Shown: piece by piece, positions 33,517-37,836 of the stretch
How positions within the stretch are numbered: the stretch's first letter is position 1
How the letters are laid out: the number at the start of each line of letters is the position of its first letter
Program-made: the position numbers and the translations under genes
Notes under the pieces: model-generated
What the model was told of the DNA's origin: nothing
Database searches by the model: none
What the model saw: only the letters and a program-made list of their open reading frames with translations
Source of the DNA: an uncultured Lachnospiraceae bacterium
GTDB lineage: Bacteria; Bacillota; Clostridia; Lachnospirales; Lachnospiraceae
Assembly: GCA_947629865.1 (NCBI GenBank)
Contig: CANRFJ010000022.1
Location: forward strand, 1-42,307
Direction: 5' to 3'
DNA: 42,307 nt

Positions 33517-34410
33517 ATGAATTTTATTGACAGATTGGAGCGGCGTTTCGGCCGTTTTGGTATTCCTGATCTGATGCGCTATGTGATCGGGATCAATATT
33601 CTGGGCGTAATTCTGGGGATAGTGTCCCCCGGTTTTTATTACAATTGGTTAAGCCTGGACATATATCAGATTCTCCACGGACAGGTGTGGCGTCTGATAA
33701 CCTTTGTGCTCTATCCAAGCGTTGTCCGCGACGAGGCCCTTTTGATAAATCTGATATGGTTTGCGGTATGGGCTTTCATGTACTACTATATCGGCACTAC
33801 GCTGGAGAGGATGTGGGGAGCCTTCCGCTTTACGCTCTTTTATCTTGGCGGTGTGGTCTTTGTGTTCCTTGTGACGGTCGGCGCATACTTTATCCTGCTG
33901 CTGACCAATCCCCTCCTGTTAATGGTGGAGAGAAGTTATAACCTCGGCTGCAGCGTCACGTTTGATTACCTGAATCAGACGCTCTTTCTTGCGTTTGCGG
34001 CCATGTTCCCCGATGTGCAGTTTTTGATCAGTTTTGTGATACCGGTCAAGGCGAAGTGGCTGAGTATCCTCTATCTGGTTCTGATTGGCTGGAGTCTGAT
34101 TCAGTGCATTATGAGTGGGAATTACTATACGGCGGCGCTGATTGCGGGCGCACTGGTGAATTTTGCCCTGTTTTATTTCTTTGGCAAGGGTAAACCGGGG
34201 GTACACGCGGCCTACCGGCAGAAGAAAAGAAAAGTCCGGTACCGGCAGCAGGCGAGAGAGCCGGAGGGGCCGAGGCACCGCTGTGCCATCTGCGGCAGAA
34301 CGGAACTCGATGCGCCGAATCTGGAATTCCGTTACTGCACCAGGTGCGAGGGGAACTACGAATATTGTTCGGAACATTTATTTACTCATGAACATGTTCA
34401 CCGTTCATGA
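33517..34410 (+). CDS. Rhomboid-like membrane protein without catalytic residues, C-terminal zinc ribbon
   Basis: 297 residues with about five or six transmembrane segments between 20 and 225, then a basic linker and a C-terminal Cys-rich domain (C256, C259, C274, C277, C284, plus histidines). The membrane part has the rhomboid-fold pattern (HGQVWRLITFVLYP, LERMWGAFRFTLFYLGG, FPDVQFLISFVIPVKAKWL), but the catalytic GxSG and the histidine of the last helix are missing, so it is an inactive relative comparable to derlin-type proteins. The last ten residues (LFTHEHVHRS) are encoded by the first copy of a 33-bp repeat that spans the stop. Role unknown; perhaps membrane-protein handling. Confidence 0.75.
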   Translation: MNFIDRLERRFGRFGIPDLMRYVIGINILGVILGIVSPGFYYNWLSLDIYQILHGQVWRLITFVLYPSVVRDEALLINLIWFAVWAFMYYYIGTTLERMWGAFRFTLFYLGGVVFVFLVTVGAYFILLLTNPLLLMVERSYNLGCSVTFDYLNQTLFLAFAAMFPDVQFLISFVIPVKAKWLSILYLVLIGWSLIQCIMSGNYYTAALIAGALVNFALFYFFGKGKPGVHAAYRQKKRKVRYRQQAREPEGPRHRCAICGRTELDAPNLEFRYCTRCEGNYEYCSEHLFTHEHVHRS

Positions 34411-34447
34411 TAAATTATTTACTCATGAACATGTTCACCGTTCATGA
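34378..34447 (+). repeat. 33-bp palindrome-bearing direct repeat over a stop codon
   Basis: Two identical 33-bp copies, 34378-34410 and 34415-34447, separated by TAAA. Each holds the perfect palindrome TGAACATGTTCA and the 8-bp inverted repeat TCATGAAC/GTTCATGA. The first copy encodes the last residues and stop of the rhomboid-like protein; the second is non-coding. Confidence 0.93.
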
Positions 34448-34466
34448 GTGCCAATGAATGGAGGTA

Positions 34467-34600
34467 GTATGAAAAATCACGCCGATGCGCTGATTTTTCA
34501 TACGGCAATTTGTTTCTGAGCGAAAACAAATTGCTTTGATGGCAGATGAGAAACTGCACGCAGTTTTCTCATCGCCTCCTCGCAACAAGTCGCTCAGAAA
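34467..34600 (+). repeat. Cluster of interlocking inverted repeats upstream of the glycosyltransferase fusion
   Basis: Three consecutive hairpins: A, 12 bp (34467-34478 with 34492-34503); B, 11 bp (34505-34515 with 34524-34534) with loop CTGAGCGA; C, 13 bp with one bulge (34545-34557 with 34560-34573), extendable by GGC/GCC. A fourth pairing, D, joins 34513-34523 with 34590-34600 (11 bp), so the loop of B can pair with a segment right beside the downstream Shine-Dalgarno (GAGGA, 34602-34606). This allows a pseudoknot or alternative fold. Repeats are read directly; the RNA role is inference. Confidence 0.8.
34469..34519 (+). CDS. Possible 16-codon leader peptide
   Basis: ATG 34469 to TGA 34519 encodes MKNHADALIFHTAICF. 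GGAGG lies 4-5 nt upstream, a better Shine-Dalgarno than that of the large gene downstream. The start codon is in the left arm of hairpin A and the stop codon is in the loop of hairpin B, so a ribosome translating it would open A and B. There is no run of one amino acid that would mark classic attenuation. Alternatively the ORF is just part of a repeated palindromic element. Confidence 0.4.
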   Translation: MKNHADALIFHTAICF

Positions 34601-34611
34601 TGAGGATTAAT

Positions 34612-37600
34612 ATGAAAGATTTTAAGGATTTTTTCTGCCAGGATTTTTTCTGGCTTGGATTGGTGGCAGTCGCCGTACTCTGGTTTATTTACTACTACCG
34701 CTTCCGCTATGAGGTGGAGGGAATCCGCGTCTACATGAAGGAGAAAAAGAGAGAGTGGGCCAATATACTGCTGCTTCTCGGCGCCGCCTTTCTAATCAAA
34801 TTGATAATGTCCGCTTATTATGAGGGACACGGGACGGATATGAACTGCTTTTATGCCTGGTCGGATATGATTTTCGACAACGGAATCGGCAGGTTCTATT
34901 ATCTGGACGCATTTACGGATTATCCGCCGGGATATATGGCGATACTCTGGGTGATTGCCGGTATCCGCCGGATTTTCTCCATTGACACTACCGGTACAAT
35001 CGGGCGGATTCTGATCAAACTGGTGCCGATGGCAGCGGACGTCGTGACGGGCTTTCTGATATATGTGCTGGCCAAACGGAAGTTTTCAGAGGCGTCGTCC
35101 CTTATGCTGTCTGTTATTTATGTGATGAATCCGGTCATTGTCACGGACTCCGTCATATGGGGGCAGACAGACAGCGTGTTTACCCTGTTTGTGCTCCTCA
35201 CCTGCTATTTCTGCATGGAGAAAAAGAGGATTCCGGCTTATTTTGCTTTTATTGTCGGTGCGTTTATCAAACCGCAGACTCTGATATTTGCCCCGATTCT
35301 TATATGGACGATTATTGAACAGGTTTTCCTGAAGGATTTCAATGTGAAAAAAATGCTGCGGGATCTGGCCGGCGGCCTCGGAGCCATTGCGACGCTGGTG
35401 ATTTTGTCGCTTCCATTCGGCATTGAAAAGGTTTTTAACCAGTATGTGGATACGCTGGGCTCCTATGAATACTGCACTATCAATGCCTATAATTTCTGGG
35501 CTCTCCTCGGCAAAAACTGGGCGGATCAGTCCGGAAAGTTCCTGTTTCTGGAATACCGTCAGTGGGGAATGGTGGCAATTGTGGCGGCTGTTGCCCTGAG
35601 CGGCTGGGTTTTCTTCCGCTTAAAGGAGGACAAGTCTAAATACTTTATCAGCATGAGCATAGTGGTGAGCACGATGTTTTTATTCTCTGTGCGGATGCAT
35701 GAGCGCTATATGTTTCCGGTAGTGGCGCTGACTCTGTGCGCGTTTCTTCTCAAACCGACGAAGGAGTTGTTTTTTACTTATGTCGGCTTTTCCGCAGTGC
35801 AGTATCTCAATATCCGCCATGTGCTCTATTATTTTCAGAAATATGATTCCACCGGCCCGGTGGGAGGCGGCATCGGCGTCACGGCTCTCCTGACGATTGG
35901 AGTGTTTGCCTATCTGTTTTATGCAGCGTTTTCCCAATCCAGGATGGAACCGATGCGGGAGTGGAGTGATGGCAGGGGCAAGAAGAAAAACCAGCTTCCC
36001 TACATTGTCCGCCAGACGCCGAAGAAGGCAGAGGAGACAGTGGAGAAGAAACCCACCATACAGCCGAGTAAGGTTCTGCCCCGATTCGCCCGGCTGGACT
36101 GGATTGTGCTGGGCTCAATTATGATGGTGTATTCTGCCATTGCCCTGTACGATCTGGGATATATAGACGCGCCGGATACATCCTGGAGTTTCCAGGGGGC
36201 CGGAAGCCAGATTGTGCTGGATATGGGACAGGAGGAGCAGATCGATATGATACATGCCTTCCTGGGAGTATATGAGAACCGGAAGTTTACTCTGGAGATG
36301 TCCGGAGACGGCAGAAATTATGAATCGCTCGGCGACGTCGGCATAAATAATGTATTTGCCTGGAATAAGGCGCAGGTGGTGGACAGCGAGACGCCGGACT
36401 CCTATAATCTGACGAAGAAATATCGGTATATACGGCTGACTTCCCAGGACAATGAGGCCATAGTGAATGAAATGATAATCATGAATAAGGAGGGACATGC
36501 CCTGACGCCGCAGAATGCCGGGGAGTATGCGGCGCTCTTTGACGAGCAGCAGTTATATGACGTCAGGGAGACATTCCGGAGCGGAACATATTTCGACGAG
36601 ATTTATCACGCCCGAACGGCCTATGAGATGATAGAGAAGATGTACTGCTATGAGAATACCCACCCGCCTCTTGGAAAATTCTTTATCAGCCTGGGAATCC
36701 GCATCTTTGGCATGAATCCCTTTGGCTGGCGGATAGTGGGAGTGCTTTTCGGCATCGCCATGCTGCCGTTTATGTATCTTTTTGGCAGGCGGCTCTTTGG
36801 CGGCCAGACTTGGGCGGCCGGGGCGCTGACGTTTTTGTTTGCCTTTGATTTTATGCACTTTGCCCAGACGCGCATCTCCACAATCGATGTGTACGGCACC
36901 TTTTTCATCATTGCCATGTACTATTTTATGTATAAATACAGCCAGACCAGCTTTTATGACAACCCGCTCTGGAAAACCTTTATCCCGCTGGGACTGAGCG
37001 CGCTTATGATGGGACTTGGCTGTGCGTCGAAGTGGACTGCGGTATATGCGTCGGTCGGACTGGCAGTATTCTTTTTTGCGATTCTGTTTGTGCGGTACAG
37101 GGAGTATTGTGTGGCGAAGAAAAATCCGGGCGGGACGACGGAGGGAATCCGGCACGAACACATCATCGGGGTGTTCAGAAACCGACTCATTGGGACGCTT
37201 GGTTTTTGCGTGCTGTTTTTCATTGTGATTGCGGGACTGATCTACCTTCTGTCCTATATTCCGTTTTCCGATGGCACGGATTCCGGGCTGTTTGAACGGA
37301 TGCTTACGAATCAGAAAACGATGTATAACTACCACTCCACGCTTGAGTCGACACACCCCTATCAGGCCGCATGGTATGAGTGGCCGGCGATGATACGGCC
37401 GATGTTCTATTACTGCCAGACTGTGGCAGACGGGCTGAAAGAGGGCATCAGCGCATTTGGAAACCCGCTTGTGTGGTGGGCGGGACTGCCGGCCATTCTC
37501 TATATGCTCTACCTGATTTTCCGCAGGAAAGACCGGATTGCGCTGTTTATGGTATTCGCTTACCTGGTTCAGTATGTGCCGTGGATGCTTGTGCCCCGCT

Positions 37601-37836
37601 GTACCTTTACCTATCACTACTTCCCGTGCGTGCCATTCCTGGCGATGATGGTGGTATATGTCATGGTGCGCCTGGTAAAGAAGGACAGAAAGTGGATGAA
37701 ATGGGTATTTGTCTATCTGGCGGCAGCCTTTGCGCTGTTTATGCTGTTCTATCCGGTGCTGTCCGGCCAGCCGGTTTCGGACGCCTTTGTGCGGGACGGA
37801 CTGAAGTGGCTTCCGGACTGGGCGCTTATATATTAG
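34612..37836 (+). CDS. GT-C glycosyltransferase / discoidin / PMT-type mannosyltransferase fusion
   Basis: 1074-residue polytopic membrane protein with three parts. Residues about 1-450 form a GT-C-type membrane module with the loop motif GHGTDMNCFYAW (D76) and DYPPGYM. Residues about 535-650 form a discoidin (F5/8 type C)-like beta domain (IVLDMGQEEQIDMIHAFLG, RYIRLTSQD). Residues about 655-1074 are a PMT (GT39) module with the DE motif D662-E663 (FDEIYHARTAYEM) and THPPLGK. PMT enzymes move mannose from polyprenyl-phosphate-mannose to Ser/Thr of exported proteins. ATG 34612 is chosen because GAGG is 6 nt upstream; a longer frame from 34546 is encoded by the inverted-repeat element. The Thr-Pro surface protein is a plausible acceptor, by inference only. 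Confidence 0.88.
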   Translation: MKDFKDFFCQDFFWLGLVAVAVLWFIYYYRFRYEVEGIRVYMKEKKREWANILLLLGAAFLIKLIMSAYYEGHGTDMNCFYAWSDMIFDNGIGRFYYLDAFTDYPPGYMAILWVIAGIRRIFSIDTTGTIGRILIKLVPMAADVVTGFLIYVLAKRKFSEASSLMLSVIYVMNPVIVTDSVIWGQTDSVFTLFVLLTCYFCMEKKRIPAYFAFIVGAFIKPQTLIFAPILIWTIIEQVFLKDFNVKKMLRDLAGGLGAIATLVILSLPFGIEKVFNQYVDTLGSYEYCTINAYNFWALLGKNWADQSGKFLFLEYRQWGMVAIVAAVALSGWVFFRLKEDKSKYFISMSIVVSTMFLFSVRMHERYMFPVVALTLCAFLLKPTKELFFTYVGFSAVQYLNIRHVLYYFQKYDSTGPVGGGIGVTALLTIGVFAYLFYAAFSQSRMEPMREWSDGRGKKKNQLPYIVRQTPKKAEETVEKKPTIQPSKVLPRFARLDWIVLGSIMMVYSAIALYDLGYIDAPDTSWSFQGAGSQIVLDMGQEEQIDMIHAFLGVYENRKFTLEMSGDGRNYESLGDVGINNVFAWNKAQVVDSETPDSYNLTKKYRYIRLTSQDNEAIVNEMIIMNKEGHALTPQNAGEYAALFDEQQLYDVRETFRSGTYFDEIYHARTAYEMIEKMYCYENTHPPLGKFFISLGIRIFGMNPFGWRIVGVLFGIAMLPFMYLFGRRLFGGQTWAAGALTFLFAFDFMHFAQTRISTIDVYGTFFIIAMYYFMYKYSQTSFYDNPLWKTFIPLGLSALMMGLGCASKWTAVYASVGLAVFFFAILFVRYREYCVAKKNPGGTTEGIRHEHIIGVFRNRLIGTLGFCVLFFIVIAGLIYLLSYIPFSDGTDSGLFERMLTNQKTMYNYHSTLESTHPYQAAWYEWPAMIRPMFYYCQTVADGLKEGISAFGNPLVWWAGLPAILYMLYLIFRRKDRIALFMVFAYLVQYVPWMLVPRCTFTYHYFPCVPFLAMMVVYVMVRLVKKDRKWMKWVFVYLAAAFALFMLFYPVLSGQPVSDAFVRDGLKWLPDWALIY

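Follow-up and report, generated by a model that had tools for sequence, protein, structure and literature searches.

Hairpins that precede the gene of a 1074-residue protein in the window (the whole 42,307-nucleotide stretch analysed here, contig CANRFJ010000022.1 of an uncultured Lachnospiraceae bacterium) are best explained, with a probability of about 0.85, as one copy of a mobile, non-autonomous element, which lands in a fixed orientation in the spacer that separates the Shine-Dalgarno (SD) sequence of a gene from its start codon. The initial annotation of this region had considered both an inserted REP- or MITE-like element that provided a start region, and a short leader ORF gating the downstream start. 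The former proposal is strongly supported by the dispersal of copies, by orthologous sites free of the element and by a signal of flanking duplication, all of them presented below together with the readings that compete with it.

The window copy and its predicted fold

The element is ~147 nt long. Its copy in the window, of type 1 and covering model positions 1-146, was matched at 34465..34611 (+ strand, as all features given below) by covariance model R1 with 151.2 bits and an E-value of 4.7e-44, a score obtained with a building set that contained this same copy. The stretch first singled out is real, its limits being slightly shifted, since the model spans 34465-34611 and adjoins an SD sequence, GGAGG at 34460..34464, which is presumably the original one of the target gene. 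An inverted-repeat search of 34350-34750 recovered the three repeats claimed for the region: a perfect 13-nt one (34467-34479/34491-34503) forming hairpin P1 (34467..34503), a perfect 11-nt one (34505-34515/34524-34534) forming hairpin P2 (34505..34534), and a third one of 9 perfect nt plus inner pairs (34545-34553/34565-34573) within hairpin P4 (34541..34576; GGC-A-GATGAGAAA.../...TTTCTCATC-GCC, with a bulged A), for which fold prediction on 34450-34630 gives 12 pairs and the bulge. That same prediction yields -63.7 kcal/mol versus a mean of -40.4 for shuffled sequences (z -5.97, with 0 of 200 shuffles reaching as low a value), well beyond chance. In the window copy, the repeat search returned no terminal inverted repeat joining the two ends of the element.

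The loop-to-3' complementarity noticed initially is also present and longer than reported, 11 perfect nt instead of 8, pairing 34513..34523 (the P2 loop plus 3 nt of the P2 stem) with 34590..34600 as the 5' and 3' strands of a kissing, or pseudoknot, helix. The right SD, GAGG at 34602..34605, is recognised by its sequence and by its spacing to the start codon among copies. Both the ATG of the gene, at 34612, and a 16-codon leader ORF, MKNHADALIFHTAICF (34469..34519, ATG 34469 to TGA 34519), are located as first described, the ORF being probably incidental. In the pseudoknot-free minimum of the window copy, the extended loop-tail helix takes the place of P2, so that both helices partly compete; covariation among copies shows both to be kept.

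The statement that no named RNA family fits holds for Rfam 15, which returned a tRNA alone over the whole window and, for 34360-34640, Leu_leader as its best match with 18.6 bits against a cut-off of 50.

The downstream gene (34612..37836) encodes a chain that joins a GT87 region with PMT_2/PMT_4TMC regions, and the first 300 residues of this protein have a relative in 38 of the 39 genus genomes, its own included. Upstream, 34378-34451 holds a perfect 33-nt direct repeat with a spacing of 37, which looks as if the 3' end of the preceding gene (C-terminus ...HEHVHRS) had been duplicated in tandem, is in single copy in relative G011 and is unrelated to the element.

Number and distribution of copies

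A covariance model built from 14 own-genome copies and considering P1, P2 and P4 only gave 54 matches in the own genome (G000). Of these, ~41 are copies, 30 scoring above 90 bits and ~11 being partial; the others are 11 hits of the P1 palindrome on the reverse strand, a single reverse hit spanning a tandem pair, and a 36-nt match. BLAST against this genome, proposed as a check in the initial annotation, likewise placed copies on many contigs. The tandem pair lies at C8:4373-4651. Within the genus, matches occur in 33 of 39 genomes, with up to 59 each, counts that may include reverse-strand P1 matches. In a sample of the family, 36 of 200 genomes, corresponding to 35 of 199 genera, have matches under stricter filters and with 15 candidates scored per genome. 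In a sample of the class, 5 of 391 genomes match: besides the own genome, there are three from the same family and one with a lone hairpin; this last match (L403 in G298), the sole one outside the family, consists of a P1-like hairpin only and was taken as chance.

A motif scan of named genomes returned at least 116 stretches. Among the 80 matches listed, most belong to uncultured Lachnospiraceae, Acetatifactor, Eisenbergiella, Roseburia and Lachnospira, with some from Clostridium, Clostridiales and Eubacteriales, one from a Bacillus sp. and one from an uncultured bacterium assembly. Searches of phage and plasmid collections by distant BLAST gave no match to the window copy; in the viral contigs, the type 2/3 loop motif was absent.

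For the statistics, 73 of 85, 80 of 81 and 30 of 34 matches were used from three match sets, the rest being incomplete, weak, repeated or on the reverse strand, while 11 weaker copies of the own genome, among them those in C21, C5 (twice) and C1 and those at C8:13355 and C14:44622, were left out. The 73 copies from named genomes are not independent on the loop side, because they were fetched by a pattern fixing the P2 loop, and, since copies are related to each other, copy counts do not amount to independent events. From the 183 copies, 164 entered the duplication analysis, 174 the leader and ORF tests, 155 the left SD test, 140 the loop-tail test and 135 the SD accessibility predictions.

Some copies depart from the canonical architecture. 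The own genome holds ~74-nt deletion derivatives at C3:100359-100432 (L024), C11:71507-71580 (L029) and C4:75733-75806 (L028), in which P2 is lost and the 5' part of P1 continues into the 3' part of P4 plus the tail, with SD-like sequences on both sides. Extra small hairpins appear inside other copies at three places, between P1 and P2, in the P2 loop and in P4 (L003, L006, L007, L025; L020, L023, L327; L009, L310).

Probable insertion between the Shine-Dalgarno sequence and the start codon

A start codon falls within the ten bases at the end of the model in 171 of the 183 copies; among the 12 lacking one in the expected window, an extra insert accounts, by eye, for 3. An ORF of at least 60 codons, or open at the sequence end, follows in 135 of the 174 copies with a parsed end, the 39 failing ones including parsing slips and contig ends, and in 98 of those 135 the start codon keeps a single spacing, 10 nt past a conserved GGAAT/GAAAT. 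At the opposite end, a 4-mer of AGGAGG is found in the 15 nt at the left end of 120 of the 155 copies with a canonical 5' end, versus 18% of 3129 random sites. Control rates are nonetheless high, with a start codon in range for 147 of 255 intergenic GGAGR motifs and with 800 of 3540 GGAGR motifs standing before an ORF of 60 codons, so that these figures do not separate true targeting from selective retention.

The sequences next to both SDs are related more often than expected. A stretch of at least 5 nt following the left SD recurs after the right one in 41 of 164 copies, compared with a mean of 18 and a maximum of 30 over 2000 permutations; a fixed-length target duplication is not established by these data, as 88 of the 164 share not even 3 nt. 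Rare spacers present on both sides, GGTGT (L095), GGAGT (L305) and GAGGT (L297), point to a short target duplication that would take in part of the SD, and many other copies display a GATTA-like sequence at the spacer position. We infer that the right SD is composed of the end of the element (...GGAATGG or ...GAAATGA) and of target sequence. In 15 of the 183 copies, the 30 nt to the left resemble the 3' end of another copy, and hence the SD of one copy may be the landing site of the next one.

Shortness, structure, dispersal and some flanking duplication would also suit a MITE descended from a classical insertion sequence of the DDE kind. Such an origin is nevertheless quite improbable here, given that no terminal inverted repeat relates the element ends in the window copy and that orientation at SD sites is fixed.

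Orthologous sites and recent spread

Comparison of orthologous loci agrees with insertion as well. As evaluated with the covariance model, the element stands upstream of typA in 3 of the 30 genus loci fetched (those of G000 and G035, and a degenerate one in G005; one typA locus, L225, ends 49 nt before the gene), upstream of tgt in 1 of 30, and upstream of the glycosyltransferase gene of the window in 1 of 30, this copy being seen in the own genome only. At the typA site, the own copy reads AACGGAGGATT-element-GAGGATTCATATG, while the relative G031 shows AACGGAGGAGCCATATG and no element. For tgt and the window gene, the flanks have diverged too far for an exact junction to be placed.

Of the 51 matches in G024, 17 were fetched; these copies are on average 95% identical, and 23 of their 106 equal-length pairs (136 pairs in all) show no difference, while their upstream flanks are unrelated, with an average identity of 28%. 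Near-identical copies within unrelated flanks indicate recent spread. Since the window copy shows no terminal inverted repeats and searches for reverse transcriptase, Y1 and IS110 families pointed to no enzyme, mobility of the element rests on this dispersal and on the orthologous sites in other species.

Some genes, which we take from their sequences to be galT-like, typA and HAD-type ones, plus another, recur downstream of different subtypes. Separately, L318, L336, L338 and L339 precede the same gene in four genus genomes and differ in their P2 loop, which appears with or without an inserted hairpin.

Covariation of the fold

Covariation, another check put forward initially, was evaluated with the covariance model and shows that the three hairpins and the loop-to-3'-strand helix covary. 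Among the 14 own copies, 92.1% of cells are paired, with changes on both sides in 64 cells versus 21 after shuffling. In the 78 distinct genus rows, hairpins and kissing helix together reach 96.6% of paired cells and 397 double-change cells versus 111 shuffled, and sliding the partners by 1-3 columns lowers pairing to 37-47%. Double changes affect 12 of 16 pairs in P1, 5 of 11 in P2 and 10 of 12 in P4. Counts for these hairpins lean to the model, because the alignment used, A3 (81 rows, 78 distinct, one being a weak reverse-strand match, L309, of 32 bits), was fitted to them; in an earlier alignment, A1, P4 was misplaced in 5 of the 14 copies, these five being of type 3. P4 itself is rebuilt from quite different sequences, its base being GGC/GCC, GTAC/GTAC or CCG/CGG.

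The kissing helix lies outside the model, and still 95.1% of its cells are paired and both sides change in 3 of its 8 pairs (C-G/U-A; G-C/U-A/C-G; G-C/A-U). When each loop is set against its own tail, at least 8 consecutive pairs, G-U allowed, form in 134 of 140 parsable copies versus 32 of 1400 shuffled tails. When a loop is instead set against the tail of another copy, one with a different loop and tail, 377 of 866 trials attain 8 pairs and the mean is 6.8, this frequent success of foreign tails being due to a core shared by subtypes. Altogether, the possible pseudoknot of the initial annotation is now backed by covariation among copies, by its 11-nt complement and by own-tail pairing.

Hairpins might alternatively be kept by quasi-palindrome correction through template switching rather than by selection. 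In favour of this, variants of P1 present in single copies are compensated and hairpins lack a G-U bias, but the strands of the kissing helix covary despite standing 66 nt apart around another hairpin, which makes this account improbable for the fold as a whole. Template-switch correction may add to the covariation of the hairpins. With the element read as a mobile one, its fold probably serves movement rather than regulation, the covariation fitting RNA or single-stranded DNA alike.

The leader ORF and accessibility of the right Shine-Dalgarno

A different reading regards the region as a cis-acting translational switch, in which access to the downstream SD depends on the leader ORF or on the kissing helix, regulation being the reason why copies persist. 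Several features are in its favour: 139 of 174 copies have a start codon (ATG, GTG or TTG) at one fixed place of P1, the leader frame runs uninterrupted as far as the 3' SD in 80 of the 174 versus 7 and 14 in the other frames (copies being related), and the right SD is predicted to be mostly paired, with a mean unpaired probability of 0.27 in the free state over the 135 copies considered. On the contrary, leader peptides follow two unrelated reading frames, with stopped and read-through forms and many of them ending in P2, and thus no conserved peptide emerges. Downstream proteins are mostly unrelated and share no theme (165 fall into 146 clusters).

Mismatch types bear on the same question. 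After duplicate removal, the three hairpins contain 54 G-U and 45 A-C (p 0.42), a near equality that neutral decay after insertion would give and that selection on a sense RNA would not leave. All A3 rows including the kissing helix contain 84 G-U and 56 A-C, and the kissing helix alone 22 and 9, in related rows and with 7 of the 22 being one U-G type at one pair; this latter ratio leaves room for some RNA-level constraint at the helix.

Two candidate mechanisms for such a switch were considered and discarded. A hairpin masking the SD, with triple covariation of the SD, an anti-SD in the kissing strand and an SD-like loop, was suggested by three subtypes; it is 83.9% paired and without any double change in its 4 pairs, a test weakened by a one-base shift between subtypes. 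The second one, SD accessibility, shows weak predicted effects. The mean unpaired value goes from 0.27 to 0.37 when the kissing strands are occupied and to 0.19 when leader and P2 are unfolded, while in the window copy the values are 0.39 free, 0.005 kissing and 0.004 with the leader unfolded, so that kissing lowers access in this copy and raises the mean. Gating of the downstream start by the leader peptide, as a conserved function, thus finds no support in peptide conservation, G-U excess, SD-masking covariation or gene theme, and regulation as the reason for keeping the copies appears unlikely. The leader ORF would rather be a by-product of the mobile element, which may still have a local polar or regulatory effect on the window gene.

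In some copies of G024 and G026 (e.g., L286 and L303), the leader frame enters the gene, with a predicted N-terminal extension of ~45 residues (VKNHTDMLIFHT...SLRSGMEINM). Such in-frame copies can mislead the annotation of start codons by that length.

Candidate mobilising enzymes

A strand-specific fold, the lack of terminal inverted repeats and oriented insertion are traits to be expected if the element depended on a single-strand transposase of the IS200/IS605 or RAYT type, on IS110 with its bridge RNA, or on a reverse transcriptase. Reverse transcriptases (PF00078) give matches in 17 of the 39 genus genomes, among them the high-copy G000, G019, G029 and G032, and IS110 transposases (PF01548) exceed the cut-off in 20 of 39. 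Nonetheless, G024, estimated as 98% complete and with 51 element matches in a fragmented assembly, has no RVT_1, no Y1_Tnp and an IS110 match below the cut-off only. PF00078 was also missing from the assemblies of G003, G033 and G026, all many-copy. The Y1 transposase (PF01797) occurs in 10 of the 39 genomes and is absent from the fragmented assemblies of the high-copy G024, G032, G029 and G019; the only match in G000 (C1:164106-164273, L031) is partial, covering profile positions 2-57 of 121. Dependence on one of these enzymes is accordingly rather unlikely, bearing in mind that enzyme absence is tentative when all assemblies are fragmented and repeats can be missing.

REP/BIME sequences are dispersed palindromic repeats associated with RAYT transposases; the element differs from them in that 29 of the 39 genus genomes, several of them many-copy, have no Y1_Tnp match. 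Bridge RNAs of IS110 are structured, with loops, and their elements lack terminal inverted repeats. The element described here holds no protein gene, and IS110 gives no match in G019 and G029 and one below the cut-off in G024, all many-copy genomes.

Comparison with other small repeats

Prokaryotic MITEs are depicted in the main text of a review as short, non-coding and dispersed, with transcripts of stable fold and some flanking duplication (PMC10969869), all of them traits shared by the element. They differ from it in their terminal inverted repeats, not present in the window copy, and in the fixed orientation of the element at SD-start sites; a word search of that main text gave zero mentions of Shine-Dalgarno, ribosome or start codon. 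BOX, RUP and SPRITE of Streptococcus pneumoniae, according to passages of the report dealing with them (PMC3049150), are likewise small interspersed structured repeats, BOX being modular, that sometimes form expressed ORFs. As compared by description, they are over-represented between convergently transcribed genes, while the element sits directly at start codons. These two are the nearest kinds known. Given that the window copy lacks the terminal repeats of MITEs, that pneumococcal repeats prefer regions between convergent genes and that Rfam has no match at its cut-offs, the element is regarded here as a small interspersed repeat outside any named family, and the titles and abstract openings returned by searches of open-licence literature gave no description of it.

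Proposed mechanism and meaning

Considering the above, an element of ~147 nt with three hairpins and a loop-to-3'-strand kissing helix would insert between the SD and the start codon of a gene, leaving the original SD at its left and, at its right, another SD at normal spacing from the start codon. With an SD on each side, the host gene would keep a ribosome-binding site, and the SD-start spacer would act as a safe landing site. The fold may be what a trans-acting mobilising machinery recognises, with single-stranded DNA or RNA as the intermediate, and the right SD would be in part element end and in part target duplication. We tentatively suggest, as a possibility of lesser weight, a separate class of mobile element that recognises the SD/start region, perhaps in a transcript or in single-stranded DNA, inserts between SD and start codon so as to be bordered by SDs on both sides, and is moved, by way of its kissing-loop fold, by a machinery other than those known to carry small repeats.

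An element family sitting at the start codon, with tens of copies in some genomes, would contrast with the pneumococcal repeats, for which parts of the literature describe a preference for gaps between convergent genes (PMC3049150). If the proposal is true, a genomic parasite can settle in 5' regions, those of typA and tgt among them, and leave the genes intact.
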